Positions 1,119 through 44,300 of a stretch of DNA of 64,000 bases are shown one piece after another (position 1 is the stretch's first letter; each line of letters opens with the position of its first letter). Under the pieces are notes generated by a model, which did not search any database, was not told the DNA's origin, and saw only the letters and a list, made by a program, of their open reading frames with translations. Origin of the DNA: Streptomyces tsukubensis (lineage in GTDB: Bacteria > Actinomycetota > Actinomycetes > Streptomycetales > Streptomycetaceae); assembly GCF_003932715.1 (NCBI RefSeq), contig NZ_CP020700.1, positions 3,680,501 to 3,744,500 on the forward strand, given 5' to 3'. A program made the position numbers and the translations under genes.

Positions 1119-1251
1119 GCCGGGATCATAGGGACGGTTCGGTGCAGGGGGCATCGGGCGGCGGGCGTACGCCTGTGGGCTACCCGCCGCTCCCCCGGTT
1201 GTGGTCCGCGGCCCGATGCCACGCGGTCCCGGTGCACGGGACGGTGAACCG

Positions 1252-3023: not shown

Positions 3024-3068
3024 GCGCGCCGGTCTCCGGTCCTCAGCGGGTCGGGCCCTGTCGTTTCC

Positions 3069-18706: not shown

Positions 18707-18936
18707 GGGGTCCACTCCCTGCGGTCGCTGTTCCTCGGGGCGGGGTCCTCCCCGCCGCTGCCCGTCGTGGGCAACTTTCACAGGGGACGTCGGAGCCGGT
18801 GCCGGGTTCTCGACACCGGTCGACGGATTTCCCGGAAGTTTTTTCCGGCAGGCCTTCCCCGGGGCGGAGGCAGAGGCGGAGGCGGTACGGGCGGTACGGG
18901 CGGTACGGGCTCCGGGCCCGGCGACCGGCCCGGTGG

Positions 18937-24163: not shown

Positions 24164-24631
24164 CTATCCCAGGTAGGGGTAGTCGCCGGTCAGATAGTGG
24201 CCGATCTGTTCGCGCATGCTCGGGTGGATATCGAGGGTTCCGAAGTCCTCAGGCCGGACCCACCGGACGCCGTCCGCCTCGTCGTTGACCGTGGGGGATC
24301 CGCCGACGGGGCGGCCGATGTACACGGCCTCGTACTGCTGCCGGATCTCACCGTCGGTGTACTCGATGATGTGCCGCGGGTTGGAGTAGACGCCGAGGAA
24401 GCCGGTGACCTCGGCGACGATGCCGGTCTCCTCCTCGCACTCACGGACCGCGCACTGCGCGGGGCTCTCCCCGATGTCCTGGGCGCCGCCGGGCAGCGCC
24501 CACTGTCCGGTGTCGCGCCGCCGTTGGAGCAGGACGGCGCCGTCGTCGTCTATGACCAGCATGTTGCTCGCGGGGATCAAGGTGTTGGCCTTGGGCGCCT
24601 TGGGGTCGTGGTAGTACTCAGTCCTGCCCAT
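24164..24631 (-). CDS. Nudix hydrolase
   Basis: 155 residues. A complete Nudix box, GAQDIGESPAQCAVRECEEE plus TGI, fits GX5EX7REUXEEXGU with no missing residue. The start MGRTEYYHDP follows a GGAG-like site and overlaps the end of the XRE/DUF5919 gene by 14 bases, so the two are co-transcribed. Nudix genes often sit beside DUF5919 regulators in Streptomyces. Substrate unknown. Confidence 0.94.
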   Translation of the reverse strand: MGRTEYYHDPKAPKANTLIPASNMLVIDDDGAVLLQRRRDTGQWALPGGAQDIGESPAQCAVRECEEETGIVAEVTGFLGVYSNPRHIIEYTDGEIRQQYEAVYIGRPVGGSPTVNDEADGVRWVRPEDFGTLDIHPSMREQIGHYLTGDYPYLG

Positions 24632-25388
24632 GGTGGTACTGCTCCTGACTGTCGGGCACCCACGGGCGCGCGGTTGACCACACGGCGTCGAAGCTCTCGC
24701 CGTACCGCTCGAACCATTCGCCACCGGGCGTACGCCTGAGCTGGAGGAGCGGGTTCGCGCTGGCCGGCAGGCCCCAGATGTGCGGGTTGGCCATGAGGTG
24801 GTCGTCGTACCGGAAGATCGAGGTGTAGAGCGTGGTGTCGTGGAGACGCACCTCGCAGCCCGGATGGCCGACGAGGTCCCGGTAGTACGTGAGCGACGCC
24901 CTGATCTTCGCGGCCAGGGTGTCCCCGATGCCTTCCTCCTCGCCTCGGATCCGGACGGCTTCGCCTTCGGGGTCGCCGAAGCAGAGCCGTACCCGGACTC
25001 CCGCCTGCGCCCGCTCCTGGAGCATGCGCGTGATGTGCGGGTTGGTCTGGGCAAAGAAGGTCCCCGAGAAGACCAGGACGTCGATCTGTTTCATCGCTCC
25101 TGACAACAGGGACATCCAGATATCACGCGGCACACTCGCCCGGTTCGCGTAGGTGTCCACCAGTTCCGACTGAGCGGCGCCCAGCCGGGACGTCCGCTGC
25201 CCTGTTTCCGGCCAGAGGTACGCCTCGTCGATCTTGAGAAGGTTGGCCACGGTCCAGCGGTTCCGACGGTGTGGAACCCGGCCGGCCACCCATCGGCTGG
25301 CGGTCTTGGGATCGACCTCACAGGCCGCGGCCACCTCATCCACGGTCAGCCCGCGTTGCACGAGCGCAGAACGAAGTCGCTCATTCAC
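24618..25388 (-). CDS. XRE-type regulator with DUF5919 (PLD-like) effector domain
   Basis: 256 residues. The N-terminal helix-turn-helix (VQRGLTVDEVAAACEVDPKT) is followed by the DUF5919 region: MSLLSGAMKQIDVLVFSGTF, a Rossmann-like VRVRLCFGDPEGEAVRIR, EGIGDTLAAKIRASL, and a terminal YGESFDAVWSTA. Many Streptomyces carry this family, often next to nucleotide-active enzymes; its ligand is unknown. The GTG at 25388 (reading VNERLRSAL) is the natural start. It diverges from the HAD gene at 25485, so the 96-bp gap holds both promoters. Confidence 0.92.
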   Translation of the reverse strand: MNERLRSALVQRGLTVDEVAAACEVDPKTASRWVAGRVPHRRNRWTVANLLKIDEAYLWPETGQRTSRLGAAQSELVDTYANRASVPRDIWMSLLSGAMKQIDVLVFSGTFFAQTNPHITRMLQERAQAGVRVRLCFGDPEGEAVRIRGEEEGIGDTLAAKIRASLTYYRDLVGHPGCEVRLHDTTLYTSIFRYDDHLMANPHIWGLPASANPLLQLRRTPGGEWFERYGESFDAVWSTARPWVPDSQEQYHHGQD

Positions 25389-25484: not shown

Positions 25485-26183
25485 GTGCCACTCATCGTGC
25501 TCTGGGACGTCGACCACACCCTCATCGAGAACTCCGGTGTGAGCAAGGAGATCTACGCCGCGGCCTTCGCCGCCGCCACGGGCCTCGACGCTGCCCGGCC
25601 GGCTCGCACGGAGGGAAGAACTGACAGGCTGATCCTCGCCGAGATGTTCCGGGACCATGAGGTGAACGCTCCGGAGTGGGAGACGGTCAACCGAGCGCTC
25701 ACGGCCGCGGGGGCCGCACGCGAAGGCGACCTCAGTCGGCGGGGACGCGTCCTTCCCGGTGCGCGTGAGGCCCTTGTCGCGGTCGCAGCGGAACCCGCCA
25801 TGGTCTCGTCGGTGCTCACCGGGAACATCTACGCCAATGCTCGGGTGAAGCTGAGGGCCTTCGGCCTGGACACACTCGTCGACATGGGCTGCGGGGCCTA
25901 CGGTGCGGACGCGACGGACCGTGCGGCCCTGGTGGACATCGCCCGCCACCGGGCACGTACGGCCTACGGCCTTCCTGCCCACACCCCGGTCGTCCTGATC
26001 GGCGACACCCCACGTGACGTCCGTGCCGCCCTCGATTCCGACGCTCACGTCGTCGCCGTGGCATCCGGTATCCACGGTGCCGACGAACTCCGGGAAGCCG
26101 GAGCCACCGTCGTTCTCCCCGACCTTCTGGACGGGCCGGCGTTGATGCGCCACCTGCGAACGCTGGCGCCCAGCACCGTGTAA
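25485..26183 (+). CDS. HAD-superfamily phosphatase
   Basis: 232 residues, phosphoglycolate-phosphatase-like HAD. Motif I is WDVDHTLIE (nucleophile Asp and general acid Asp present), motif II SSVLTGN, motif III a conserved basic residue in ARVKLRAFGL, motif IV LIGDTPRDVRAA. GTG start. It is separated from the radical SAM start by about 140 bases and may be outside the operon proper, though on the same strand. Confidence 0.92.
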   Translation: MPLIVLWDVDHTLIENSGVSKEIYAAAFAAATGLDAARPARTEGRTDRLILAEMFRDHEVNAPEWETVNRALTAAGAAREGDLSRRGRVLPGAREALVAVAAEPAMVSSVLTGNIYANARVKLRAFGLDTLVDMGCGAYGADATDRAALVDIARHRARTAYGLPAHTPVVLIGDTPRDVRAALDSDAHVVAVASGIHGADELREAGATVVLPDLLDGPALMRHLRTLAPSTV

Positions 26184-26325: not shown

Positions 26326-27420
26326 ATGACGGCCTTACTCAGCGGACCGCCCGGCGCGGTCTCCACGCTCGCAGCATGGGAACGCCTTGCGATCCGGTAC
26401 CGCGTCCCCGTCGAGGACGCGTTGCTCATCGCGATCAACCTTCACGGCATCGACGCGCAGCCGCCGCGCCACCGGGCCCGCGTACAGGTGAGGCTGTCGA
26501 GTGCCCCGACGGTTCCGTGGCAACTGATCGTCCCGCTGAACGCCACCGGTTCCCCGTTCCGGCTCGACGAGGGCAGCCTGACGCTCGGTGGTATGCCGAT
26601 CGCCACCGTCGAACGCGTCGACGCGGATGACGCGGTGGGCGGGTACTTCCGGAACGGCGGTGCCGCCGCGACGCTCAACCCGAACGCGCGCAGCCGGTGT
26701 GTGGGCTGCGCCTTCTGCCCCAACACCCTGGAGGCCGCGGCAGACCCGCGGCTCTCCGAGGAGAGAGACCTCCGTGAGCTGTTCTCGGCGCTGCGCGAGC
26801 AACACCCACGACGTGACCTGACGGAACTACGCGAAGTGACTGTGTCGACAGGCTGCTTCGAACGGGAAGCCGCGGCCATCGACCACATCCGTGCGCTGCG
26901 GAAGGTGCTCGGCGATTACGACATCGCAGCCCGGGTCAGCTTCCTGACCTCAGTGCTCCAATCCCAGGAGGCCTTCTACTCACTCGCCGAGGAGGCCGTG
27001 CCCTTCGTCCTGCGTCTGACAGCGGAGTGCTTCACGCGGCGGGATCTTCTGCTGAAGGCCAGCAAGGCCCGCCTGGCCGCCCAGGAGATGCCGGAGGTGC
27101 TCCAACGGGCGCTCAGCACCGGCCACGGCACATCGTTCACCTACATCGTCGGCCTGGACGACCTCGATGCCCTCCGTTCGGGGGTCGGCGCTCTGGCGCC
27201 GTTCGTCACCGAGTTCCCCAACTTCCAGGTCTATCAGGCGCACAACTCCGTCATGACCGGTCTGCGTACGGCTGGAGCGGGTGATCTGGAGTACTACCTT
27301 CGTGCCCGTGAGGTGATCGAAGAGATCACCGGACCGTCCGGGCTCCGGCCGGCGGCGTGGGAGTGCTACCGCCCGCTCTGGTACTTCACCTTCGCCGACG
27401 AAGCCTTGGTCGACCCGTGA
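26326..27420 (+). CDS. Radical SAM protein with a CX2CX2C cluster motif, operon gene 1
   Basis: 364 residues. A ~115-residue N-terminal region of no known family precedes a cluster-binding-like motif, CVGCAFC (Cys 125, 128, 131). Canonical radical SAM enzymes use CX3CX2C. Downstream parts read like a radical SAM barrel: EVTVSTGCFERE, VSFLTSVLQS, FTYIVGLDDLDAL. The ATG at 26326 has GGATGGAG at 8-nt spacing; starts further upstream (26215, 26251) lack a site and add Pro/Ser-rich sequence. Its stop overlaps the next start (TGATG). It would cleave SAM to a 5'-deoxyadenosyl radical if the cluster forms; the substrate is unknown. Confidence 0.85.
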   Translation: MTALLSGPPGAVSTLAAWERLAIRYRVPVEDALLIAINLHGIDAQPPRHRARVQVRLSSAPTVPWQLIVPLNATGSPFRLDEGSLTLGGMPIATVERVDADDAVGGYFRNGGAAATLNPNARSRCVGCAFCPNTLEAAADPRLSEERDLRELFSALREQHPRRDLTELREVTVSTGCFEREAAAIDHIRALRKVLGDYDIAARVSFLTSVLQSQEAFYSLAEEAVPFVLRLTAECFTRRDLLLKASKARLAAQEMPEVLQRALSTGHGTSFTYIVGLDDLDALRSGVGALAPFVTEFPNFQVYQAHNSVMTGLRTAGAGDLEYYLRAREVIEEITGPSGLRPAAWECYRPLWYFTFADEALVDP

Positions 27421-29462
27421 TGCCCGATTCCGCCCTGCTGGCGGACGCACTGTGGAGGGCCATCTGCTACGCCTCCGTGTGCCAGATCCATCTGCGGGAC
27501 AACGTACTGCTTCGCCGACGGTTGACCACCCGGCATGTGAAGGAGCGCCCGAGCGGCCACTGGGGAACGGTCCCCGGCACCGCGTGGGCCCTGTCGCACC
27601 TCGCCCTGGCGACAGGGCGTCCGGACGGTGTGGACCTCGTCCCGCTCCTCGGTGCCGGGCACGCGGGCGTCGTCCAGCTCTCGGCCGCGTGGGTCACCGG
27701 CGAGCTGGGGAGAGTCCGGCCGCGGTTCAGCCCGGACGCCGAGGGCCTTCGGCAGTTGGCCCGCTCCTTCCCCGACGTGGAGGGAATCGGAGCAGAGGTC
27801 CACCCGGCGCTACCCGCCGGAGCTTTTCTCGGCGGCCGGATCGGTGGCTGCCTCGCCTTCGCGCAAGGCGCTGCCCTGGACTCGCCGGGCAGGATCGTGG
27901 TGCCCGTCATCGGCGACGGCGAGTGCGAGACACCCACGACCGCGGCGAGCTGGCCGGCACAGCGGCTCCTTCCGCACGCGCCGGTCCTGCCTCTGGTGCA
28001 CGTGAACGGCTTCCGCATGGCCGCCCGGTCCCTCCTCGGAGCCATGGACGACGACACGCTTCGTTCGTACTTCGGCGGCTTCGGCTGGGAGGCACAGGTC
28101 GTGCACATCACCGGCTCCCTGGCGGACCACACCGCCTTCGGGGCCGCGCTGGGGAATGCGGTGGAGTCAACGCTCGACCGTCGCCCCACGGCCCTTGTGA
28201 TGCGGTGCGTGAAGGGGTGGAGCGGCCCCGCCTCCCTGGCCGGCCGTGGTCTTCTCGGCACCCCCGAGCTGCACAAGACGCCACTGATCAGCCCACGCAC
28301 CGAGCCGGAACACCTGACGCAGCTGGCCCTCTGGTTGGCGTCCTACCGCCCCGCAGACCTCTTCGACGAGAAGGGACGGCCGAAGGGCATGCTCGCCGAA
28401 GCCGTGGCCGAGACCCGATGGGGTTCCCTCCCTTCACCTCTCCCGATGCCGAGATCGACCACGGTGTCCGGCGGCCGTGCCACCACATTCACCGACGCCG
28501 TCGCAGGCGTCGTACGGAAACACGGCGCACACGGCGACTTCCTCCTCGTGAGCCCGGACGAACTGGCATCCAACCGACTCGCCGAGCTCGCGGATGAGCC
28601 CTGGGCCCATGAACTCCTGGCGGAAGAGGTGCTGCTGGAGTGGCTGGCCGGATGGACCGCAAGCGGGCGTCGAGGCGTACTGGTCTCGTACGAGGCTTTC
28701 GCCCCACTGTTCACCAGCGGCCTGGTGGGACACATCAAGCAGCGACGGCTCGTCGGGGCGCAGGGGCGGCCCAGTCTCAATCTGCTTCTCACCTCGTACG
28801 GCTGGCACAACGTCCACACGCACGGGGATCCTTCCCTCGCCACCGCGCTCCTGGCCCTGTGCGCCCCGGCGGTCCGGGTGCTGACACCGGCCGATCCGGC
28901 GAGGGCGGCCACCGTCCTGGACGACGCCTTCGACTCCTTCGACCGCGTCAACCTCGTCGTCGCCGGAAAGCACAGCCGCACCGTTCACCCTGCCGATCCG
29001 ATCGCCGAAGAACACCAGCGCGGTCTGGCCATGTGGGCCCATCTCAGCGACGAGGGCGAGCCGGACCTGACCGTCATCACGGCCGGAGACATTCCGGCCG
29101 CCGTCGCCACCGATGCCGTGGGCCACGTACGGCACCGCCACCGATGCCGCGTACGGGTGGTGAACCTGCTCGACCTCACCGTCCTCGGCGACCCCTCCCT
29201 CTGGCCACGCGGACTGAACGCCCAGGAGATCGACCACTACCTGGGCGCCCATGCCCCGGTTCTCGTCCTCACCCTCGGGCATCCGGCAGCCGTCTGGGGC
29301 CTCCTGGCGGGTCGGCTGCGGCGCCCTGTCGATGTCATCGGGTGGCACGAACCGGCCGGCCCTCTGTCTCAGGAACGTCTGGCCCGGACCCTGGGGATGG
29401 ACCGGGCGGGGGTCGCGCGGGCCGCCGGAGTCCTCCTGGCCGCGCGCGAGGTGGTCCGATGA
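27420..29462 (+). CDS. Divergent phosphoketolase-like ThDP enzyme, operon gene 2
   Basis: 680 residues, against ~800 for true phosphoketolases, but colinear with them. Matches are PSGHWGTVPG (His 47), GAGHAG (His 81; usual GxGHGG), a ThDP/Mg2+ motif GDGECETPTTAASW (165-178) with Asn 196 in HVNGF, VSPDELASNRL (usual GPDExxSNRL), SYEAF, and SLNLLLTSYGW then THGDPS (usual FSHQDPG). The EGGELGY loop is replaced by LGGRIGG. Phosphoketolases split xylulose-5-P or fructose-6-P with phosphate; the altered loops suggest a different substrate or acceptor. The start overlaps gene 1 by one base and the stop overlaps gene 3 by four. Confidence 0.85.
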   Translation: MPDSALLADALWRAICYASVCQIHLRDNVLLRRRLTTRHVKERPSGHWGTVPGTAWALSHLALATGRPDGVDLVPLLGAGHAGVVQLSAAWVTGELGRVRPRFSPDAEGLRQLARSFPDVEGIGAEVHPALPAGAFLGGRIGGCLAFAQGAALDSPGRIVVPVIGDGECETPTTAASWPAQRLLPHAPVLPLVHVNGFRMAARSLLGAMDDDTLRSYFGGFGWEAQVVHITGSLADHTAFGAALGNAVESTLDRRPTALVMRCVKGWSGPASLAGRGLLGTPELHKTPLISPRTEPEHLTQLALWLASYRPADLFDEKGRPKGMLAEAVAETRWGSLPSPLPMPRSTTVSGGRATTFTDAVAGVVRKHGAHGDFLLVSPDELASNRLAELADEPWAHELLAEEVLLEWLAGWTASGRRGVLVSYEAFAPLFTSGLVGHIKQRRLVGAQGRPSLNLLLTSYGWHNVHTHGDPSLATALLALCAPAVRVLTPADPARAATVLDDAFDSFDRVNLVVAGKHSRTVHPADPIAEEHQRGLAMWAHLSDEGEPDLTVITAGDIPAAVATDAVGHVRHRHRCRVRVVNLLDLTVLGDPSLWPRGLNAQEIDHYLGAHAPVLVLTLGHPAAVWGLLAGRLRRPVDVIGWHEPAGPLSQERLARTLGMDRAGVARAAGVLLAAREVVR

Positions 29463-30529
29463 GCCCGTGGACCGTCGAGAGCATGGACGTCGTCGAAGCG
29501 GAGCAGCCCGTCCACCCCGGTGACGACGCGCACTTCGTGGTCGTACGAGGCTCAGGGCAGGCCGGCTGCTACGGCCCGGTCGGCGAGCGGATCGCTCGCT
29601 TCGCGGAGAGCTCCCTGTCGGCTGCGGTGATGGGGGCATGCGTCACGGACCACTGCGGGATGCTGGACCGACTGCGCGCTGCAGCCCGGACGACACCGTC
29701 GGACATCGCCTCGTGGGCCGTCGGCACGGTCGACTGCTCAGTCTGGGACCTCCACGGCCGGCTGGCCTCCCGTTCCGTCGCCGGCCTGCTGACGACGGAG
29801 AGGCCGCGTTCGACCGTGCCGGCCTACGCGTCGTGGCTCTCCCGGGACCTCGTCCGTGTCCACGACCTCGGCGAGTTGCGCGATGTCGCCGCGGACGGCT
29901 GGAGCTTCACCAAGTGGGGGCTTCGCCGTGATCCAGCCGAATCACCCGCGACGGCCGCCGCGCGAATGGCCCAGGCAGTGAAGCGCTGCTCTCAGGCCAT
30001 CGGTCGCCCGGTGGCAGTCGATGCGGTCGGCACCTGGACCCCGCGGGTGGCCATGCTGTTCGCGCAGACCTGCGATCCGTCCTGCCTGCTATGGCTGGAG
30101 GACCCGCTGCCCCAGCACGACCTGGACATGTACGAGCTCTTGTCCGCGACATGGATGCCCTTGGCGGTCGGAGAGCGAGCGCACTGTGACGAGGACCCCG
30201 GCGGACTCGTCCACTACGTCAGACCGAGCGCGCTGACGTTGGACGTCGTGGGCTGCGGCGGTCTGACCCGTGCGACGCAGATTCTGCCCATCGCCCGCCG
30301 GCAGAACATCCCGCTCTACCCGCACGGGCGCTCGTTCCTGCCCGGCCTCCACCTTTCAGCCGCTTTCCCCGACGCCGTACCCGCTGTCGAGTACCGACTC
30401 CAATGGGAACCAGGTCGCCGGCGGCTCTATGACGAACCCCTCCGGCCCGAGGGCGGGCACATCGAACTGCCGGACTCCCCCGGTCTCGGCACTACCCCCA
30501 GGAGGGCATCATGCCCGGCACCGCCGTGA
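29459..30529 (+). CDS. Enolase-superfamily enzyme, mandelate racemase-like, operon gene 3
   Basis: 356 residues. The metal ligands of this superfamily are all visible: Asp 188 (VDAVG), Glu 214 (LEDPLP), Glu 239 (VGERA). The general base Lys lies in SFTKWG (Lys 152). Asp 262 and His 289 (YPHGRS) stand 27 apart, as Asp270/His297 do in mandelate racemase. It therefore looks catalytically complete and would abstract a proton alpha to a carboxylate, giving an epimerisation or a sugar-acid dehydration. The ATGA start overlaps gene 2, and its 3' end overlaps gene 4 by 19 bases. Confidence 0.88.
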   Translation: MSPWTVESMDVVEAEQPVHPGDDAHFVVVRGSGQAGCYGPVGERIARFAESSLSAAVMGACVTDHCGMLDRLRAAARTTPSDIASWAVGTVDCSVWDLHGRLASRSVAGLLTTERPRSTVPAYASWLSRDLVRVHDLGELRDVAADGWSFTKWGLRRDPAESPATAAARMAQAVKRCSQAIGRPVAVDAVGTWTPRVAMLFAQTCDPSCLLWLEDPLPQHDLDMYELLSATWMPLAVGERAHCDEDPGGLVHYVRPSALTLDVVGCGGLTRATQILPIARRQNIPLYPHGRSFLPGLHLSAAFPDAVPAVEYRLQWEPGRRRLYDEPLRPEGGHIELPDSPGLGTTPRRASCPAPP

Positions 30530-30957
30530 CCATCCGTGTCGATGGCGTGGTCAGCCCAGGCGTGGACGGACCACTGCTGGTCCTGTCCGAACGGCTCGAC
30601 GGTCACGACACCTTCCTGACCGGAGCTCTGAACATCGGTGGGACCGCCTTCCCTGTCCGCATCCTGACCTTGGACGACGTCACCGTGCTGCGTCCAGTGG
30701 AGGACCTGCCCGCACTGGCTGAAGGCACACGGTGGCAGGGAACGCTCCACCTACCGCACGGGACGCGCCCACGCAGCGCCCCACCGGACCTCCGCGAGGC
30801 GGCCGCACGGAAGGGACGGTTCCTCGACGGGCTCGACGACGCCGAATTGCGTTACGTCCTGACCTTCCTCTCCGAGGCCACGACGGCCGCCATCCGGCAG
30901 GCCCGCATCCAGGCCGTCGTCTCCGCCCTTCCAGCAGCCGTGGGAAGTGCCCTATGA
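30511..30957 (+). CDS. Unknown protein, operon gene 4
   Basis: 148 residues and not recognised. The first ~75 residues look beta-rich (VTIRVDGVVS, FPVRILTL, GTLHLPHG). The last ~60 are helical, with FLDGLDDAELRYVLTFLSEA then TTAAIRQARIQ. No Cys and no signal or membrane segment. AGGAGG precedes the ATG, and the frame overlaps its neighbours at both ends, which with the ribosome site supports a real gene. A small binding or partner protein for another operon enzyme is possible. Confidence 0.82.
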   Translation: MPGTAVTIRVDGVVSPGVDGPLLVLSERLDGHDTFLTGALNIGGTAFPVRILTLDDVTVLRPVEDLPALAEGTRWQGTLHLPHGTRPRSAPPDLREAAARKGRFLDGLDDAELRYVLTFLSEATTAAIRQARIQAVVSALPAAVGSAL

Positions 30958-31622
30958 CCCCACCACAGCTCACGCTCCTGGTCACCGTCGATGTCGGCGG
31001 AACCTTGGGAACCGCCGAGGGGCCCGGACTGGCCATGAGGCTTGCCAAGGCGTCCCCGCTGCCGGGGGCTCGTGCCCGCGAGATCATGCGGTCCACCCTC
31101 CACACCTACCCCTCCCTCACGGAGTCCGTGGTCACGGAGGTGTGCCAAGCGCTCCAGGTCTCGCCGGAAGACTTCCCCCGTGACCTCCGCCCGGCGTCGT
31201 TCGTCCTCTTCCCGGGCACGGTCGAAGCGCTGGAGAGGATCAGTGGCGTAGCGATGGTGGTGACCCTGTCGAACGTCACGTGCGTCGACGCGGACACCGA
31301 CGGTCTTCGAGCCCTCCTCTCGCCGTGGATCAGCGACTTCTTCCCCTCGTGCCGCATCGCGCACAGCAAGCCCGACCCACGTGCTTTCCACGCCGTGGCC
31401 GAGTACTTCGACACCGCGCCTGAAGTCCTGGTCCATGTCGGTGACGACTGGAACTGCGACATCGTGGGTGCTGTCGAAGCCGGGGCCAAGGCCGTGTGGA
31501 TCTCGCGGGGGCGGAAAATCCCGGACGAGTCCCTGGTCGTTGACCACGGCGTGCATGTCGCCCACGACCTGGCGGCAGCCGCCGTACACATCCAGTACCT
31601 CGCAGCACGGAGCGATACATGA
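30954..31622 (+). CDS. HAD-superfamily hydrolase with DxG motif I, operon gene 5
   Basis: 222 residues. Motif I reads TVDVGGTL: the nucleophile Asp 13 is present, but the +2 residue, usually Asp and the general acid, is Gly 15. Motif II TLSNVT, motif III HSKPDPRAF, and motif IV VGDDWNCDIVGA are intact. Loss of the second Asp is known in HAD members that are not phosphatases (phosphonatase, dehalogenase types) and in weak ones. It starts by ATGA overlap with gene 4 and ends overlapping gene 6. Confidence 0.9.
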   Translation: MTPPQLTLLVTVDVGGTLGTAEGPGLAMRLAKASPLPGARAREIMRSTLHTYPSLTESVVTEVCQALQVSPEDFPRDLRPASFVLFPGTVEALERISGVAMVVTLSNVTCVDADTDGLRALLSPWISDFFPSCRIAHSKPDPRAFHAVAEYFDTAPEVLVHVGDDWNCDIVGAVEAGAKAVWISRGRKIPDESLVVDHGVHVAHDLAAAAVHIQYLAARSDT

Positions 31623-32413
31623 ACCTCTTCGCCGGAACGTCCACGTACTACCGTCAGTTCCGTCCCGGCGTTCCCCGGGAAGTCGCCGACATCCTTGACC
31701 GAGCGGCCCCCACGCGTCCCGGTGGGCATCGGCGGCTCTTGGACATCGGCACAGGGACCGGGCTGGTGGTCGAAGCACTGCTGGGCAGGTTCGACGACAT
31801 CATCGCCGCCGACAACGACGCCGAGATGCTCGCCACTGCCGAGTCGGTGCTTCGTCCGAAGCTTCCCGGGGACTCCCGGCTGATGCTCGTGGAGAGTGCC
31901 GCCGAGGATTTCGTGCCCCCGGCCGGCTGGACGGCCGACCTGGTCACGATCTGCCGCGCGTTCCACTGGCTGGACCAGGCCACCGTCCTGTGCCTGCTGG
32001 ACAGTCAGGTTGCCCCTGACGGTGTCGTCGCCGTCTTCGGCGACAACAGCTTCTGGGCCGCGGGCAGCCCCTGGAAGGATGCTGTACGCGACGTCATCAA
32101 GTCATTCCTCGGCGAAGAACGCCGCGCGGGCACCGGCACCTTCCAGCACCACGACCGTCCTTACAGCGAGATCATGGAAGAGTCCCCCTTCGACCAGGTC
32201 GAGGAGGTCCGTGTGCCCGTCCACCGCACATGGACCGAGGAGGGCATCCTGGGCTATCTGTACTCGACCTCCTTCGCGGCCCCACACCTCTTCGGAGACC
32301 GGCTCAAGGAGTTCGAGTCCACGGTGCGGACCAGGCTCGCCGACTTCGGCGACGATGCCTTCCCCGAGGACAACGAGTTCCTGATCCGTATCGGGCGGCG
32401 GAGCAGGACATGA
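31619..32413 (+). CDS. SAM-dependent methyltransferase, operon gene 6
   Basis: 264 residues, class I fold. Motif I is RRLLDIGTGTGLVVEAL, the acidic loop IIAADND, and AFHWLDQ is the post-II motif common to small-molecule methyltransferases of this type. ATGA overlap on both sides. The target could be an O, N or C atom of the operon product. Confidence 0.92.
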   Translation: MNLFAGTSTYYRQFRPGVPREVADILDRAAPTRPGGHRRLLDIGTGTGLVVEALLGRFDDIIAADNDAEMLATAESVLRPKLPGDSRLMLVESAAEDFVPPAGWTADLVTICRAFHWLDQATVLCLLDSQVAPDGVVAVFGDNSFWAAGSPWKDAVRDVIKSFLGEERRAGTGTFQHHDRPYSEIMEESPFDQVEEVRVPVHRTWTEEGILGYLYSTSFAAPHLFGDRLKEFESTVRTRLADFGDDAFPEDNEFLIRIGRRSRT

Positions 32414-33240
32414 TGAGCGACAGCTCCTGGCGTTCGTACGGAAAGCTGACAGCGCCTCGGGTCACGGCCGAACTGAACGAACGATCCGTCCTCTGCCTAC
32501 CGGTGGGCTCACTCGAACAGCACGGCCCCCATCTGCCGCTCGACACCGACACCGTCATCGCCGAGGGCCTTACGCTGCGCCTGGCGGCACACGTCGCGAA
32601 CCGGCACGACCTCTGGGTCGCGCCACCCATCCCGTACGGCCTCTCCCCGGAGCACGCCTGGGCACCCGGCACCGTAACCCTGGGACTCGCCCAGTACGCC
32701 GGCCTGATCACCACGCTCTTGGAGGAGTACCTCCGAGCCACCCCCGTTCGCACGGTGATCATCGTCAACGGGCACGGCGGCAACAGGGGGGTTCTAGAGG
32801 GTCTGGTGCACCAGTTCAGGCACATCCACGGTGTCGCCGTCTGCGCATGGCACCCCAGCTCCCTCGGCCGGGGCACGGTCGGCAACGCCCTGCCGGAAGT
32901 CCACGCGGGCATCCACGAGACGTCGCTGATGCTCGCCCTGGCCCCGGACCACGTACGAATGGACCTCCTTCCCGCCGAAGCGCCCCCGGTCCGCCACCAG
33001 CGGGAGACGATCCGACGTCTCGTCCTCGACCGGGGGGCCACGTGGCCGTGGACATCGGACGACCCGACGCTGGCCACGCACGGGGTCATCGGCGGTGACC
33101 CGCGCCAGGCCGGTCCGGAACTCGGTGAGGGACTCATCGCCGCGGCGCTGAACACCGGCACGGCTGTCCTCGACCGGCTGGCATACCCCGGCCCGGCCGA
33201 ACCGATCACCTCACGGAGGACTCATGCCCCTCACGGTTGA
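32410..33240 (+). CDS. Creatininase-family amidohydrolase, operon gene 7
   Basis: 276 residues. The zinc-site motifs of the family are present: PVGSLEQHGPHLPLDTDT (Glu 36, His 38, Asp 45), IVNGHGGNRG and EVHAGIHETSLMLAL. Known members open cyclic amides (creatininase), deformylate FAPy, or trim the mycofactocin precursor (MftE). No mycofactocin MftA/B/C is seen. An amide or formamide hydrolysis step in the pathway is the plain reading. ATG at 32410 overlaps the preceding stop; its 3' end overlaps gene 8 by 17 bases. Confidence 0.93.
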   Translation: MMSDSSWRSYGKLTAPRVTAELNERSVLCLPVGSLEQHGPHLPLDTDTVIAEGLTLRLAAHVANRHDLWVAPPIPYGLSPEHAWAPGTVTLGLAQYAGLITTLLEEYLRATPVRTVIIVNGHGGNRGVLEGLVHQFRHIHGVAVCAWHPSSLGRGTVGNALPEVHAGIHETSLMLALAPDHVRMDLLPAEAPPVRHQRETIRRLVLDRGATWPWTSDDPTLATHGVIGGDPRQAGPELGEGLIAAALNTGTAVLDRLAYPGPAEPITSRRTHAPHG

Positions 33241-33991
33241 GGAAAAGGCCACGTTCAAACGGGATGGAGTACTCATCTGCCGAGGACTGGTCGCCCCATA
33301 CCTGACCAGGCGCGCCATACCCCTTATCGACACCTGGTACCGCCACCGTCTGGCCCCGGGCAACATCTCGGCGTACTCACAACGCACCTTCGCCCCGGAG
33401 CTGGGAACCCACCGCGACATCCTCGCCCTCTACGCGGAATCCGAGGCTGCGGTCATCGCCTCCGACCTGCTCGGCGAATCCGCTCCCGTCACCACCGCCC
33501 AGATACAGATCCGCGTACCCGAATCCGAACATCCCGGTGTGCAGCCCGAGAAGCCGATGCACGTCGACGGCGTCTCCTGCCCCCACCTCGATCCACAGGA
33601 ACTGCGCACCTTCTCCCTGCTCGTCGGCGTGATCCTGTCCGAGATCAACGACCCCCGAGACGGCGCATTGCGATATCTGCCCGGTGGGCACCGCACGATG
33701 GCCGAGTGGTTTCGTGACCAGTGGTCGCTCGGGATCACGGAACAGGTCCCACCGAAGGTGGACCGCGGGCACGGGGTCCCCTTTCTCGGTGCGCCCGGAG
33801 ACGTACTCCTGATGCACCACCTGGTCCCCCACGCCGTCGGGCTGAACCTCGCGCCGTACCCGAGGGTGACGGCGTACTTCCGGATTTCTCATCCGGAGCA
33901 CCGTAGTCGTCGGCTCGATGCCCTACGCGATCCGTGGCTCGACTACCCGGGCCTCGCGTTCGCCCCGCCCACCCCGGACTCCAAGGAGTAG
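33224..33991 (+). CDS. Fe(II)/2-oxoglutarate oxygenase, PhyH (phytanoyl-CoA dioxygenase) family, operon gene 8
   Basis: 255 residues. Facial triad visible as His 113 and Asp 115 (KPMHVDGV) with distal His 203 (VPHAVGLN), and Arg 214, 11 residues later, to hold 2-oxoglutarate. Many PhyH members hydroxylate or halogenate natural products. Asp 115 is intact, so hydroxylation or desaturation is expected rather than halogenation. A GGAGG site precedes the ATG. Confidence 0.92.
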   Translation: MPLTVEEKATFKRDGVLICRGLVAPYLTRRAIPLIDTWYRHRLAPGNISAYSQRTFAPELGTHRDILALYAESEAAVIASDLLGESAPVTTAQIQIRVPESEHPGVQPEKPMHVDGVSCPHLDPQELRTFSLLVGVILSEINDPRDGALRYLPGGHRTMAEWFRDQWSLGITEQVPPKVDRGHGVPFLGAPGDVLLMHHLVPHAVGLNLAPYPRVTAYFRISHPEHRSRRLDALRDPWLDYPGLAFAPPTPDSKE

Positions 33992-33995
33992 CCGC

Positions 33996-34646
33996 GTGCG
34001 CACCGTCAGCCCTCAGGACCTCGGTCTCGCGGTCCGGGCGGTCGAGTCCGGAGAACTCGTTGTGATCCCGACGACTCGCTGGTACATGATCTGCGCAGAT
34101 GCCGGCAACGCCCAGGCGTGCGAGAGCATCTTCATGGGGAAGCGTCGTCCCGGCGCCAAGTCCCTTGCCTATGTCGCCCAGTCGCTGAGCGCCTGCCGGG
34201 ACCGCTTCCACCTCAGTACCGAAGCCGAACGACTCGCTACCGCTTTCTGGCCCGGAGACCTCGCGCTGCTCCTGCCCTGGCGGGACCCGGAGGAGGCTGC
34301 CAAACACTCAGCGGTCGGCTCCCCCTCGCTCACGACGGTGGCGCCCGGCACCCTCGGGAAACTCGCGGCGGTGTCGACGGTGCCGATCGCCGCCACCACG
34401 GCCAACATCTCCGGCGACGCCAGTCCTGAAGACCCCGGCCCCGCCGTGACCATCGCCGAGGTACACCGCTTCCTGACAGCCTCCGGCTTGAAGCCCTCCG
34501 TCATCGTCGACGGCGGTGTGTGCCCCGCCGCCAATCACATGACCATCGTGGACTGCTTCACTCCGGAGGCGAGACTCATCCGTACAGGCCTTGTTCACCA
34601 GAGATCTGTCTCGGCGGCTCTCGGACGCGAGGTTCAAAGCATCTGA
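33996..34646 (+). CDS. Stand-alone YrdC/Sua5/YciO-type protein, operon gene 9
   Basis: 216 residues. Resembles the YrdC fold: VVIPTTRWYMICADAG (usual PTDTVYGLGC), KRRPGAKSLAY (KxR-type nucleotide motif), FWPGDLALLLP and IAATTANISGDASPEDPG (usual TSANxSG). YrdC proteins make threonylcarbamoyl-AMP from Thr, bicarbonate and ATP, or act in O-carbamoylation. The changed first motif suggests a specialised copy. A housekeeping Sua5 should exist elsewhere in the genome. GTG at 33996 has AAGGAG upstream, and the gap to gene 8 is 4 bases. Confidence 0.9.
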   Translation: MRTVSPQDLGLAVRAVESGELVVIPTTRWYMICADAGNAQACESIFMGKRRPGAKSLAYVAQSLSACRDRFHLSTEAERLATAFWPGDLALLLPWRDPEEAAKHSAVGSPSLTTVAPGTLGKLAAVSTVPIAATTANISGDASPEDPGPAVTIAEVHRFLTASGLKPSVIVDGGVCPAANHMTIVDCFTPEARLIRTGLVHQRSVSAALGREVQSI

Positions 34647-34675: not shown

Positions 34676-34713
34676 GAAGCGCCCCACCCGGCTGATGCCA
34701 GGTGGGGCGCTTC
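34676..34713 (+). terminator. Terminator of the nine-gene operon
   Basis: Perfect 13-bp stem GAAGCGCCCCACC / GGTGGGGCGCTTC with a 12-nt loop, 30 bases after the YrdC-like gene and followed by TTCG. Confidence 0.88.
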
Positions 34714-34751
34714 TTCGCAGGTCACGGGCCAGCGCCCGCCCCCGCACTCGG

Positions 34752-34824
34752 TAGGCCGCGTGGGACTCGAACCCACAACCAACGGATTAAAAGTCCGCTG
34801 CTCTGCCAATTGAGCTAGCGGCCC
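34752..34824 (-). tRNA. tRNA-Lys, anticodon TTT
   Basis: 73-nt cloverleaf. Acceptor GGGCCGC, D-arm GCTCAATTGGCAGAGC, anticodon loop CTTTTAA, T-arm GTGGGTTCGAGTCCCAC. No CCA encoded. Its 3' end faces the accessory segment. I looked for a duplicated 3' end near 23525 and found none. Confidence 0.96.
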
Positions 34825-34956: not shown

Positions 34957-37900
34957 TCAGTGCAGGGACGTGTACCGCTGCCAGCCCGTACCCACCTGGG
35001 TCGCGGCCGAAAGCGTGCCCTTGCCCGTGCCCAGGTGCTGCCACAGACGGCCCGCGGTGTCGCGCGAGACCAGATCCGCGTTGCCGTCACCGTTGAGGTC
35101 ACCGACACCCGAGAACGTTTTACTGGTCACCGCCCAGTCCTTCTGGACCAGAGTTCTGACACCGAGGGTCTTCTTGCCGGTGCCGTTGTAGCGCCACAGC
35201 TCGCCGCCCGCGTCCCGCGCCAGCAGATCACCGTGGCCGTCACCGTTCAGATCCCCCGGGGCGATCAGGGTGAGGCCCTTGAAGGAGCCGCTGAGGATCC
35301 CGGCCGAGCGCAGGGTGCCGGTGGGGGTGACCGCGTACAGATACAGCTTCCCGTCCGGCTTGCGGCCCAGCAGGTCGCCCTGGCCGTCTCCCGTCAGATC
35401 ACCGGCGGGCAGGATCGTGTCGAAACCGGCGAAACCTATACCGATCCGGACCTTGGTGGAGGTCGGGCCGGGCAGCCCGGCGCACGCACCCTCGTACCGC
35501 CACAGCTCCCCCGCCGTGTTGCGGACCACCAGGTCGTCGCAGCGCTGGTTGTTCATGTCCCCCATGGGCAGGACAGCGGTGATGTTCTTCCAGCCCTTGG
35601 ACACCCGCTGCACCGCGCCGCCCGTGGCCGCCTTGGTGAGCCCCTGGTGGGCGACGAGGTCCGCGCCGAGGCGGGTGACGACCTCGGGGATACCGTCCGC
35701 GAGGTAATCGCGGGGCACATCCGGGCCGCCGGACACGGTGATCCACTGGCTGGTGGCCACCCGTCCGTCGACGGTCAGGGTCACCCCGTACTTGCCGTTG
35801 CGCACGGTCCGGCCGGCCGAGTCCCTCGTATCCCACGCTGCCGCGAGCTGGGCACCGGTTTGCGGTATCGAGTTCTGTGCCAGGGTGCGTACGACGTTGC
35901 CCGCCGCGTCCTTGACCGTGATGGACCAGGAGCCCGCCGGGCGGCTGAGCTGCCAGCGCCCCTCCCATCTGCGGCTCTGAGGGGCATTGACCAGCTGGGA
36001 GGGGGCGTCCCCGGACTCGATGACCGCGACGGGGCTGCGGGGCACATCCACCGTCCGAACCCTGATCGCCTGCTCGGCATCCACGTACGCGAGATGGCCG
36101 CCGAACTTGTCGACCGCCCACTTCGCGTTCGCCGGGACCGTGGCGACCGGGGCCGTAACCCCGGTGTGCAGGTTCGTCAGCGCCAGCTTGCCGCCGTCCT
36201 CGCGGACCACGAAGCCGTCTCCCAGCTTCGTCTTCCCGCCCGCCGTCACCGGAAGGTTCTTCGCCGCGGTGCGGTCATACACCCCCGCATCGGTGGTGCC
36301 GCAGGCCCAGTACAGCCAGCGGCCCACGGCCTGAAGGTGGTCCGGTGCACAGCCGGAGCCCGTGTTGAGCTCGGCACCCGACTTCTTGGTCTTCAGGTCG
36401 TACGGGACGACGCTGCCGGCCTTCTTGCCGGGGGTCCACAGAGTGCTGCCCCAGACCGACGCGGCGGTCGCGGGCCGTTCATGGGCGATGAGGCCGGAGC
36501 TCCATGTCCGGCTGTCCTGAATGTACTGCCAGTGGGGGTAGTCGCCGTCGGTCAGGATGGCGTACCGACCGGTGGCCTCGCTCAGTGACGGCGGCGTCCC
36601 CGGGGCGTACTGGCTCGCGGAGCGACCCGGCTCGACGGTCTGCATTCCGGCCCCGTTGACGAAGGCACTGCGGCCGTCGCCGGGGGAGTGCAGCTCGCCC
36701 TTGACCGGACTGAGCAGCTGGGCGGGTGCAAGGCGCGCACCGATAACCGGGGTACCGGTGTCCGTGGCAGAAAGGTCATGACTGTAGACGGCCCGCAGGG
36801 GGGCGCCGTCGGTGTGCACGGCATAGCTGAGCCTGCCACCGCCGATGGCGAGGCCCTCGATGGGCGCGACCGTCTTCGGTATGCCGCGTGCGACGGCCAT
36901 CTCCAGGGTGCCGTCGGCTGCCGCGGTGACCCGGCGCACGGCCCAGTCCTTCGGTCCGGTGCCCCCGGTGAAGAGCACGCTGCCGTCGGGAGCCGGGGCG
37001 AATTCACCGGTCGCGTATGGAAGCAGTTCCCGAGGCTCGCCGGTGTTGCCGATGGGGACCGCGAGCAGCTTCGTCCCGGGCCGGGTCAGCCGCCTGGACG
37101 AGTCACCCCCGCGGTTGACCAGGATGGAGTCGCCCACCACGGCGAGTTCGGCGTAGTAGCTCTCGAAACGCTCCTGTGCGGGGAGGTCGGTCACCACGGG
37201 AGCCGCGTCCGGTGTGCGCGTATCGAGCGTGGTGACCTTCTGGGTGACATGGTCGTACGCGGTGATCACATGATGCCGTCCGAGCTGGTAGCCGTACGGT
37301 CCGGCCTCGGGCACCCGGGTGAGCCGCGCGGTGGTGAAGTCGAGGTGCCACTTCGCCTGGGCGCCGGACCAGATGCTGATGACGGCACCGAAGCCGGTCT
37401 GGACGGCGGACGGGTGGCGCGGCAAGAATTTGCTGTTCGCCGGCACACCGGTGACCGCGGTCTCCTCGGTGGTGCCGTCGGCGGCCCGCCGCAGGATGGT
37501 CATCGAGGTGACGTACTGCGAGGCATCCCACCGGAAGACGACGATCGCGTCATGGGTGAACAGCCCCGTGTAGAAGGCACCCTGGGGCAGGCTGTGGAGA
37601 GTCCTCTCACCTGTGGCCTGGTTGGTGACGGCGACGGCCCGGGTCCCGTCCGGGGCCGTTGTCTGGGCGGCGTACAGCCCGGAGTGTCCGGCGTAGTTGC
37701 CGATGCTCCGGGTCTCGCCCGTCGCGAAGTCGGTCCAGAAACGGTTGTTGCTGCCCGGCAGGGAAGCCGAGTAACCGGTGGGGCCCGCCTCGTGCAGGGT
37801 GATGTGGTCGGGCAGGACCGGATTCTGCGGCGGCAGTACGGCCTCACCGGCCGCAATGCCCTGCAAAGTCGTGGCCGTCGCGGCGGGTGCCACGGCGGTG

Positions 37901-37986
37901 ACCAGGCCCGCGCCCAGGGCGACCGTGACCGCCGTCGCCACGGAGCGACGGATGGCCGTACGGGAACGGCCGTTGTGGTGCTGCAA
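34957..37986 (-). CDS. Secreted FG-GAP/VCBS-repeat protein, tandem paralogue 1
   Basis: About 1009 residues. Signal peptide follows the start (TAIRRSVATAVTVALGAGL). A long beta-propeller-like region follows (about 60-640), then a FlgD-type Ig-like domain (WDTRDSAGRTVRNGKYGV, ~735-790), and the C-terminal ~210 residues hold FG-GAP/VCBS units with DGxGDLLGR- and DLNGDGNADLVSRD-type calcium loops, ending in GWQRYTSLH. The start is TTG at 37986 after GGGGAGGGGATT, as in the two paralogues. Function unknown; likely extracellular binding or structural. It shares a 181-nt identical block with paralogue 2. Confidence 0.9.
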   Translation of the reverse strand: MQHHNGRSRTAIRRSVATAVTVALGAGLVTAVAPAATATTLQGIAAGEAVLPPQNPVLPDHITLHEAGPTGYSASLPGSNNRFWTDFATGETRSIGNYAGHSGLYAAQTTAPDGTRAVAVTNQATGERTLHSLPQGAFYTGLFTHDAIVVFRWDASQYVTSMTILRRAADGTTEETAVTGVPANSKFLPRHPSAVQTGFGAVISIWSGAQAKWHLDFTTARLTRVPEAGPYGYQLGRHHVITAYDHVTQKVTTLDTRTPDAAPVVTDLPAQERFESYYAELAVVGDSILVNRGGDSSRRLTRPGTKLLAVPIGNTGEPRELLPYATGEFAPAPDGSVLFTGGTGPKDWAVRRVTAAADGTLEMAVARGIPKTVAPIEGLAIGGGRLSYAVHTDGAPLRAVYSHDLSATDTGTPVIGARLAPAQLLSPVKGELHSPGDGRSAFVNGAGMQTVEPGRSASQYAPGTPPSLSEATGRYAILTDGDYPHWQYIQDSRTWSSGLIAHERPATAASVWGSTLWTPGKKAGSVVPYDLKTKKSGAELNTGSGCAPDHLQAVGRWLYWACGTTDAGVYDRTAAKNLPVTAGGKTKLGDGFVVREDGGKLALTNLHTGVTAPVATVPANAKWAVDKFGGHLAYVDAEQAIRVRTVDVPRSPVAVIESGDAPSQLVNAPQSRRWEGRWQLSRPAGSWSITVKDAAGNVVRTLAQNSIPQTGAQLAAAWDTRDSAGRTVRNGKYGVTLTVDGRVATSQWITVSGGPDVPRDYLADGIPEVVTRLGADLVAHQGLTKAATGGAVQRVSKGWKNITAVLPMGDMNNQRCDDLVVRNTAGELWRYEGACAGLPGPTSTKVRIGIGFAGFDTILPAGDLTGDGQGDLLGRKPDGKLYLYAVTPTGTLRSAGILSGSFKGLTLIAPGDLNGDGHGDLLARDAGGELWRYNGTGKKTLGVRTLVQKDWAVTSKTFSGVGDLNGDGNADLVSRDTAGRLWQHLGTGKGTLSAATQVGTGWQRYTSLH

Positions 37987-38185
37987 GGAATCCCCTCCCC
38001 TGGAACCGTCGTACCGCACAAGCCAATACGGCGGATCCGTCCTGCATCAGTGACCCACGGACAACGGGAGGAGCGGACGGGAATCGGCCGCTGCCGGCGA
38101 GAAACTCCCGTCCCGGGTGGCGGACATCGTAGCAACGGGATAGATGCCATGAGCAGCTATTACGAGGGGGATTCGGGCCGGTACG
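37987..38185 (-). promoter_or_regulatory. Promoter and leader of FG-GAP paralogue 1
   Basis: Conserved leader shared with paralogues 2 and 3. On the minus strand GTTGCTACGATG (with a TACGAT -10-like hexamer at 38126-38131) stands ~140 nt before the TTG start, followed by sequence nearly identical to the other two copies. Confidence 0.6.
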
Positions 38186-41382: not shown

Positions 41383-44300
41383 TCAGTGCAGGGACGTGTA
41401 CCGCTGCCAGCCCGTACCCACCTGGGTTGCGGCCGAAAGCGTGCCTTTGCCCGTGCCCAGGTGCTGCCACAGACGGCCCGAAGTGTCCCGGGAGATGAGA
41501 TCCGTACGGCCGTCGCCGTTGAGGTCGCCGACTCCCGCGAACGCCTTGCTGGTCACCGCCCAGTCCTTCTGGACCAGGGTCTTGGCGCCCAGCGTGCCCT
41601 TACCGGTGCCGTTGTAGCGCCACAGCTCACCACCGGCATCGCGCGCCAGCAGATCACCGTGGCGGTCGCCCGTCAGATCCCCCGGGGCGATCAGCGTCAG
41701 GCCCTTGAAGGAACCGCTGATGATCCCCGCCGAGCGCAGCGCACCGGCGGAAGTGACCGCGTATACGTACAGCTTGCCGTCCGGCTTGCGCGCCAGCAGA
41801 TCACCACGGCCGTCGCCCGTCAGATCACCGGCGGGCAGGATCGTGTCGAAGGACCCGAACCCCGTACCGATCCGGACCTTCGCCGACGTCGGGCCGGGCA
41901 GCCCGGCGCACGTACCCTCGTGCCGCCACAGCTCCCCCGCCGTGTTCCGGACCACGAGGTCGTCACAGCCCTGGTTGTTCATATCGCCCATGGGCAGGAC
42001 GGACGTGATGTTCTTCCAGCCCTTGGAGACCCGCTGGACTCCGCCGCCCGTCGCCGCCTTCGTCAGGCCCTGGTGGGTGACGAGGTCCGCGCCGAGACGG
42101 GTGACGACCTCGGGGATGCCGTCGGTGATGTAGTCGCGCGGCGCGTCATGGCTGCCGGAGAGGGTGATCCACTGGCTGGCGGCCACCCGTCCGTCGATGG
42201 TCAGCGTGACGCTGTACTTGCCGTTGCGTACGGTCCGGCCGGTGTTGTCCTTCCCGTCCCAGGCAGCCGTGAGCTGGGCGCCCTTCCCGGCCGGGGAGGT
42301 CTGGGCCACGGTCCGTACCGCATTGCCCGCCACGTCCTTGATACCGATCGACCAGGAGCCGGCCGGGCGGCTGAGCTGCCAGCGGCCGTCCCAGGTGCGG
42401 TCCTGGGAGGAGGCCGCGACCGTCAGCGACGCGTCGGTCTCGGACTCGACGACGGCGAGCGGACTGCGCGGTACGTCCACGGGCCGGACCCGGATCGCCT
42501 GCTCGGCGTCCACGTACGCGACCTGGCCGCCGAACTTGTCGACCGCCCACTTCGCGTTCGCCGGAACGGTGACGAACGGGCTCGTGACTCCGGTGTGGAG
42601 GTTGGTCAGCGCCAGCTTGCCGACGCCGTCCTCGCGGACCACGAAGCCGTCTCCGAGCTTCGCCTTGCCGCCCGCCGTCACCGGGAAGGCCCGGCCCGTG
42701 GTCCGGTCGTAGGCGCCCGCGGCGGTGGTTCCGCAGGCCCAGTAAAGCCAGCGGCCCACGGCTTGGAGGTCGTTCGGTACGCAGCTCGGGTTCAGCTTCA
42801 GCTCGGGCTGCGACTTCTTGGTCTTCAGGTCGTACGCGACGACACTGCCGGCCGTCTTGCCGGGCGTCCACAGGGTGGTTCCCCAGATCGACGCGGCCGT
42901 CTTGGCCCGGGACAGCACGACATTGCTGCCGTAGTTCATCCGGACATCGCCGATGTACTGCCGGTTGTCGCTGCCGGTGAGGAGCAGATAGCGGCCGCTC
43001 GCCTCGTTCACCGTCGGGGGACCGGGCACATTGACCGTGCTGAAGCTGCCTTCCGGGTTCGGCACCTGGAGCCCGGACGCGTTCACGAAGGCGGTCCGGC
43101 CGTCGCCGAGGGAGTGCAGCTCGCCGGTGGCCGGGCCGGGGCTCCGGAAGCCCTTGTCCCGCGGGCCGATGACGGGCGTGCCCGAACCGGTGACGTCGTG
43201 GCCGTAGAGGGCCCGCCCCTGGCTGCCCTCGGTCTCGGCCAGGTAGCCGAGTCTGCCGCCGCCGAACGCCAGGCCCTCGATGGTCGCGGGCGGGGACGGG
43301 AGTTGGTGTGCGGTGGTCAGCTTCAGGGTGCCGTCCGCATCGGCGGTGACCCGGCGCACGGCCCAGTCGCCCGTCCTGTTGCCGCCCGTGACGAGCACAC
43401 TGCCGTCGGGGGCCGGGACGAGGTGTTCGGTCGTATAGCGCAGCAGTTCGCGCGGTTGGCCGGTGTTGCCGATCGGGACCGCGTACAGCTTCGCCCCAGG
43501 CACCGTGGCTCGTGCGTGCACGTTGATCCGGCGGCTGACGAGGATCGTGTCACCGATGGCGTAGACCCCGCCGAAGCTCTCCTCCGGGCCCTCCGGCTTG
43601 GGGATGTCGGTCACCACGGGTGCCGCGTCCGGTGTGCGCGGGTCGAAGGTGGTGATCTTGTTGGCGAAGAAGTCCCTGTCGGTGATCACAGGGCCCTGGC
43701 CGGGCTGGTAGCCGCCCCCTCCGACGTTGCGGGGCAGCTTGGTCAGCCGGGCGGTGGCGTAGTCGAGCAGCCAGTCCGTGGAGAAATCGCCGTAGCGGCT
43801 CCAGATGTTGAAGGTGGCCGCGAAGCCGGTCTGGCCTTCCGGACCGGCGAAGGGGAACCTGCTGTTCTCCGGGAAACCGGTGATCGCGGTCTCTCCGGTG
43901 GTGCCGTCCGCGGCCTGCCGCAGGATGCTCATTCCCACAAGCGTGCCTTCGGCGTCGATCCGGAAGACGACGATCGCGCCGTGGGTGTAGGCACCGGAGT
44001 AGTACACGCCCGAGGGCAGCTTGTAGACGGTGTTGCCGCCCGTGGCCTGGTCGGTGACGGTGACGGTCTGGGTGCCGTCCTCGGCCTCCGTCTTGGTGTC
44101 CCGCAGACCGGAGTGCCCGGGCTGTCCGGGCTCGGTGTCGATGGGCCGGGTCGCTCCCGTCGCGAAGTCGGTCCAGACGCGCTTGTTGCCGGCTCCCGCC
44201 TTGGCCCCGTAGCCGGTGGGCCCCGCGTCCTGCACCTCGACGGGATCGGGTACGAGACGGTCCTGCGGCGGCAGTACGGCCTCACCGGCCGCGATGCCCT

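Follow-up and report, generated by a model that had tools for sequence, protein, structure and literature searches.

Our comparison supports a model whereby nine genes of Streptomyces tsukubensis form an accessory, horizontally transferable operon for the synthesis of a single small, polar specialised metabolite whose precursor is a phosphorylated sugar or sugar acid, a reading to which we give a probability of roughly 60%. The genes lie in a 64,000-nucleotide stretch (here the window; positions 3680501-3744500 of contig 1 in an 8.0-Mb genome of three contigs), where the open reading frame listing places nine plus-strand frames at 26326-34646. We favour this model because the set combines carbon-skeleton enzymes, a phosphatase and tailoring enzymes, has no transporter or assembly line, and is patchily distributed, mobile and subject to decay. 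The presence of S-adenosylmethionine (SAM)-, thiamine diphosphate (ThDP)- and Fe-type enzymes in a set with no uptake system also counts in its favour.

Conservation, movement and decay of the gene set

With one genome scanned per species, 58 named loci were obtained, which with the window makes 59 compared. All nine families stand in the window's order at 22 of these 59 (window included), bearing out the proposal, made from the letters of this DNA in an earlier note, that the nine genes form one unit; that note would have dropped the proposal had the order been absent in all relatives. Twenty-four loci have the window's architecture, type A (radical SAM, phosphoketolase-like XFP, mandelate racemase-type (MR), gene 4, HAD, methyltransferase, creatininase, PhyH, YrdC), and of them only L059, without XFP, and L067, without creatininase, are incomplete. 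Types B and C share the core with type A in rearranged form. Type B (12 loci) runs radical SAM, MR, gene 4, HAD, methyltransferase, PhyH, YrdC, XFP, PhyH2; nine copies are complete, L079 and L109 are cut by a contig end, and L108 is in pieces and incomplete. Type C (17 loci) runs radical SAM, MR, HAD, GGDEF-like plus gene 4, XFP, PhyH2, methyltransferase, with no YrdC. HAD was undetected by BLAST in some type-C loci, PhyH2 is not seen at five loci outside Streptomyces, and L091, L092, L095 and L096, two of whose contigs end early, have the methyltransferase elsewhere or show none. The six other loci comprise L093 (genes 1 and 4 only), L106 (ending just after gene 1), L110 (a truncated gene 1), and L112, L113 and L114 (a short piece only). 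On the strength of these comparisons, the nine genes are best read as one evolving unit conserved across actinobacteria and not as a chance assembly.

L121, from the same phylum and 39% identical in gene 1, also has the full nine families, but arranged differently: creatininase, XFP, radical SAM, gene 4, PhyH, YrdC, a 392-amino-acid protein, MR, HAD, methyltransferase. Its weakest assignments are MR (E 4.7e-13) and gene 4 (E 9.5e-9), both scored against a one-sequence database, and profile comparison gave gene 4 only 26% probability. The gene for the 392-amino-acid protein (L121 12185-13363), inside this rearranged operon, has no Pfam match.

Carriers among the named loci include Streptomyces, Saccharopolyspora, Salinispora, Actinoplanes/Paractinoplanes, Plantactinospora, Nocardia and Geodermatophilus, and further Actinacidiphila, Streptacidiphilus, Actinomadura, Arthrobacter, Actinophytocola, Actinopolymorpha and Nocardiopsis. 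Further relatives of gene 1 occur in Bradyrhizobium, the cyanobacterium Coleofasciculus, Parafrankia and a metagenome-assembled genome (MAG) of the acidobacterial Pyrinomonadaceae. The distribution is sparse: gene 1 is present in 26 of 392 Streptomyces genomes (19 with a match of at least 310 residues, seven with fragments only) and in four of 396 genomes drawn across the phylum, the S. tsukubensis genome included and one match being marginal (E 3.9e-4). Strong gene 4 matches (E < 1e-30) were found in 18 of the 392 Streptomyces genomes, 17 of which also match gene 1; in the other direction, a strong gene 4 match accompanies the long gene 1 match in 16 of 19 genomes and is absent from G055, G225 and G316. 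The other 55 genomes with gene 4 matches gave weak ones, mostly over the C-terminal helices.

The genes evolve together, and they also move and decay together. Pairwise distances correlate with those of gene 1 at rho 0.88 for genes 3, 4, 5 and 6 and at rho 0.60-0.74 for genes 2, 7, 8 and 9, values that shared ancestry alone raises. A gene 1 tree, built from 53 of 56 rows after short or interrupted ones were excluded, places Saccharopolyspora shandongensis with two Streptomyces species (support 100/99) and an Actinomadura copy among Streptomyces type-C copies (96/90). Matches were found in 8 of 72,556 plasmid records; the plasmid copies viewed are of type A in S. goshikiensis and S. avidinii, type B in Streptomyces sp. 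NBC_01340, and type C in Streptomyces sp. NBC_01216, with type-C variants on Nocardia farcinica pNF1 and a Mycobacterium intracellulare plasmid. Among type-C copies, L107 is decayed and L092 has a stop in gene 1, and genome G075, with a strong gene 4 and no gene 1 match, retains a truncated type-C remnant beside transposase genes. A co-conserved, mobile and patchy set of enzymes of this kind has the profile of a specialised-metabolite cluster.

Two individual copies have unusual surroundings. Genome G355 has gene 1 in two pieces about 32 kb apart (L050 and L051), as if split by a large insertion; the rest of a type-B operon comes after the second piece. The S. avidinii plasmid (L139) carries a type I-U CRISPR-Cas gene group (178-5069) some 7 kb upstream of the operon.

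Families and conserved residues of the nine proteins

Pfam assigns seven of the nine genes, namely to the XFP, MR/MLE, HAD, class I methyltransferase, creatininase, PhyH and Sua5/YciO/YrdC families; gene 4 is without a match and gene 1 has a chance-level match only. Among the NCBIfam matches listed for the nine genes, no equivalog reached its own cut-off, and one broad HAD subfamily model passed. The same two libraries revealed no transporter or uptake system, assembly line, kinase or dehydrogenase among the nine genes.

The predicted structure of gene 1 is the partial TIM barrel of the radical SAM superfamily. All 202 homologues listed carry CX2CX2C and none the canonical CX3CX2C, so that the shorter motif characterises the gene 1 family as a whole and not the window copy alone. 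Radical SAM members without CX3CX2C exist. Gene 1 nevertheless differs from lipoyl synthase, MqnE, NosL and viperin both in this motif and in matching no profile: no radical SAM model of Pfam or NCBIfam was matched by the window copy. The earlier designation as a radical SAM protein with CX2CX2C thus holds for motif and predicted barrel, without backing from the profile libraries. The closest named relatives of gene 1 come from Streptomyces (92% in S. jumonjinensis). In L069, ARAGORN places a tRNA-Ser opposite the 3' portion of gene 1, on the antisense strand (10895-10990, minus strand); this is probably a false call.

Gene 2 has all three phosphoketolase domains above the Pfam cut-offs (XFP_N 2.2e-65, XFP 1.5e-18, XFP_C 1e-11), and GHWG, GAGHAG, GDGE, SNR and HKTPL, which it has in common with the solved phosphoketolases (PDB 8io8 and 3ai7), are kept in at least 90% of 47 rows. 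However, it falls below every NCBIfam phosphoketolase cut-off (best 366.3 bits against 962), has 681 amino acids against 796-845, carries E127 at the aligned H of the solved enzymes, and is three residues shorter in the loop aligned to W-RQD-HN.

For genes 2, 3, 5, 7 and 8, the presumed catalytic residues of the family are conserved in most members. In gene 3, D188, E214, E239, H289, D262 and K152 are kept in at least 90% of 52 rows; its MR_MLE domains (Pfam), together with three residues that are presumably the metal ligands, place it in the MR subgroup of enolases, and no named enolase-superfamily equivalog of NCBIfam was reached (best 67.3 bits against 500). The C-terminus of gene 4 weakly resembles OmdA/YdeI, and the weak gene 4 matches in other genomes are consistent with an OmdA-like C-terminal domain. 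In gene 5, D13, K139 and D164 are kept in at least 90% of 41 rows and G15 stands at the usual second Asp; the DxG remarked on earlier is kept in at least 90% of the 41 copies and is therefore a family feature.

At the same threshold of at least 90%, gene 7 keeps E36, H38, D47, H122 and E170 across 22 creatininase rows and gene 8 keeps H113, D115 and H203 across 33 PhyH rows. The mycofactocin system likewise has a creatininase-family protein and a radical SAM-like protein, and its MftE model matches gene 7 (E 3.2e-38), but the score stays below the MftE cut-off (131.6 against 172 bits) and no other mycofactocin model is among the NCBIfam matches listed for the nine genes. Gene 9 shares the Sua5_yciO_yrdC domain (Pfam, E 1.5e-22) with the threonylcarbamoyl-AMP synthases Sua5/TsaC. 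In at least 90% of 33 rows, however, it has PTxRWYMxC (R40-W41-Y42-M43-x-C45) where an aligned solved relative has PTETVYGLG, and TIGR00057 gives 74.5 bits against a cut-off of 123.2, so that gene 9 has neither the curated score nor the substrate motif of threonylcarbamoyl-AMP synthase.

A proposed pathway and its alternatives

In our model, gene 2 would act with ThDP on a ketose phosphate, removing or transferring a two-carbon unit, gene 3 would abstract an alpha proton from a sugar acid or dehydrate it, and gene 5 would dephosphorylate. The scaffold-defining radical step would fall to gene 1, with gene 4 as a possible partner or substrate-binding protein. Gene 6 would methylate, gene 8 hydroxylate, gene 9 form a carbamoyl-adenylate from a substrate other than threonine, and gene 7 open or trim an amide; we place the PhyH, YrdC-like and creatininase-like steps among tailoring reactions because some relatives lack them. 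In this scheme the sequence of reactions, the substrate and gene 4's role are all inferred. We further propose that expression is probably tied to the divergent regulator upstream (Table 1) and timed to development, the latter because gene 1 has TTA at codon 4, in the window as in L061, L062, L066 and L068. TTA codons in Streptomyces require the bldA tRNA.

Several points weigh against this model. The proposed product, precursor and enzyme activities are deduced from gene families and their conservation, and a true phosphoketolase reaction of gene 2 appears doubtful because its pocket is altered (E for H and the three-residue loop deletion). The excess of TTA over other open reading frames is modest. 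Across the compared loci, the conserved set contains no exporter or resistance gene, and ABC, MFS and aminoglycoside-phosphotransferase genes lie near only some copies. Type C, which has GGDEF-like proteins but lacks YrdC, speaks for nucleotides over plain sugars. In three type-A copies an aminoglycoside-phosphotransferase-family gene lies just after YrdC (L126 20189-21181, L139 20195-21181, L070 18222-19214); it could be a self-protection gene.

The main alternative, which we consider unlikely, is that the product derives from a nucleotide, as a modified nucleoside or nucleotide serving as antimetabolite or signal, and not from a sugar acid. The GGDEF-like domain of type C is fused or adjacent to gene 4, but its matches are under the Pfam cut-off and no GGDEF protein was seen in types A and B. 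Similarly, three Nocardia copies have pyrF no more than about 2.5 kb from gene 1, and two of them also have a nucleoside hydrolase nearby, but both genes were found in Nocardia loci only. NUDIX genes near many copies, a HAD whose best NCBIfam match is the pyrimidine nucleotidase YjjG (far below cut-off) and a YrdC fold, which makes adenylates, also agree with a nucleotide, whereas genes 2 and 3 belong to sugar and sugar-acid families.

Clearly less probable is that the operon serves the breakdown of an unusual sugar acid or cyclitol, with the phosphoketolase yielding acetyl phosphate. A phosphoketolase, an acid-sugar dehydratase, a HAD and a creatininase distantly like IolN would suit such a route, but the nine genes include no transporter, kinase or dehydrogenase, the operon is rare and partly plasmid-borne, and to our knowledge radical SAM, methyltransferase, oxygenase and adenylate enzymes are not usual in catabolism. 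A viperin-like defence system producing an antiviral nucleotide is very improbable, as the gene 1 matches are general to radical SAM enzymes, with lipoyl synthase and MqnE scoring higher, and ten proteins compared with PADLOC included no system-defining protein of a known anti-phage defence, the sole match (E <= 0.01) being that of the methyltransferase to mad2. The type-C operon of N. farcinica pNF1 is followed by two more radical SAM genes (L124 18871-20971), the first with a viperin-model match over the core only and far below cut-off.

Layout of the locus and its surroundings

The junctions between the nine genes are, in order, overlaps of 4 (or 1), 4, 19, 4, 4, 4 (or 1) and 17 bases and a 4-base gap, in agreement with the seven overlaps (1-19 bases) and single gap on one strand described before (Table 1). 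The strong terminator proposed at the operon end fared less well: a 13-bp GC hairpin is present, but it has no T run, and a consensus scan called no plus-strand terminator after gene 9. The scan did call a weak minus-strand terminator at 34680-34663, and both terminator calls of the region are within shuffle expectation.

Table 1 Features of the operon and its flanks, in window coordinates
Feature	Position	Strand	Description
Gene 1	26326..27420	+	radical-SAM-like protein, CX2CX2C (C125, C128, C131), 364 amino acids, TTA codon 4
Gene 2	27420..29462	+	divergent phosphoketolase (XFP) family, ThDP-type; alternative GTG start 27417
Gene 3	29459..30529	+	mandelate racemase / acid-sugar dehydratase-type enolase
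Gene 4	30511..30957	+	no family assigned; predicted beta barrel and three helices
Gene 5	30954..31622	+	HAD phosphatase-like, D13-V-G15-G-T17
Gene 6	31619..32413	+	class I SAM methyltransferase
Gene 7	32410..33240	+	creatininase-family metal amidohydrolase
Gene 8	33224..33991	+	PhyH Fe(II)/2-oxoglutarate oxygenase
Gene 9	33996..34646	+	YrdC/Sua5-like protein, R-W-Y-M-x-C replacing Sua5 substrate motif
Hairpin	34676..34713	.	13-bp GC hairpin 3' of operon, terminator-like, no T run
Upstream HAD	25485..26183	+	adjoins operon; in 14/24 type-A loci
Regulator	24618..25388	-	divergent helix-turn-helix regulator; DUF5919 match below cut-off
NUDIX	24164..24592	-	NUDIX hydrolase

The upstream HAD precedes gene 1 in 14 of the 24 type-A loci, with the divergent regulator and NUDIX gene beyond it; in the 13 such loci other than the window, the regulator is 66-85% and the NUDIX 80-91% identical to the window copy. 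The nine genes of the earlier delimitation do evolve together, but in the window's lineage the unit probably also includes the upstream HAD and the divergent regulator/NUDIX pair.

Beyond the hairpin lies a tRNA-Lys gene (34750-34824, minus strand), and in L067 a tRNA-Gly (18729-18799) is likewise just 3' of the type-A copy. These tRNA genes mark a possible integration site; most of the other loci scanned for tRNAs have none at that position downstream of the operon. Further along the window, three consecutive large secreted-type proteins of about 970-1020 amino acids (34957-38019, 38238-41138 and 41383-44424, minus strand) have nearly identical N-termini and are apparent tandem duplicates.

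Implications

The earlier note had named a description of these nine genes in a known pathway as grounds for abandoning its idea of a new one; our searches of open full text, a body that leaves most subscription papers and all bioRxiv preprints outside, listed no such description. We tentatively suggest, at somewhat less than even odds, that the operon represents a new class of biosynthetic pathway, in which a CX2CX2C radical SAM enzyme with a cluster loop one residue shorter, a repurposed phosphoketolase and a YrdC protein of altered specificity build a scaffold unlike those of described natural products. Such a class would have spread partly on plasmids among actinobacteria, with relatives of its radical SAM protein in Bradyrhizobium, a cyanobacterium and an acidobacterial MAG. 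If this is right, Streptomyces, Micromonosporaceae, Nocardia and others, together with plasmids, would harbour a type of pathway without the usual scaffold-forming enzymes, and the gene set would be ready for heterologous expression. The CX2CX2C family would probe how much alteration the iron-sulphur loop of a radical SAM enzyme tolerates without loss of function, and the RWYM family of YrdC proteins may provide a new adenylate-forming specificity.

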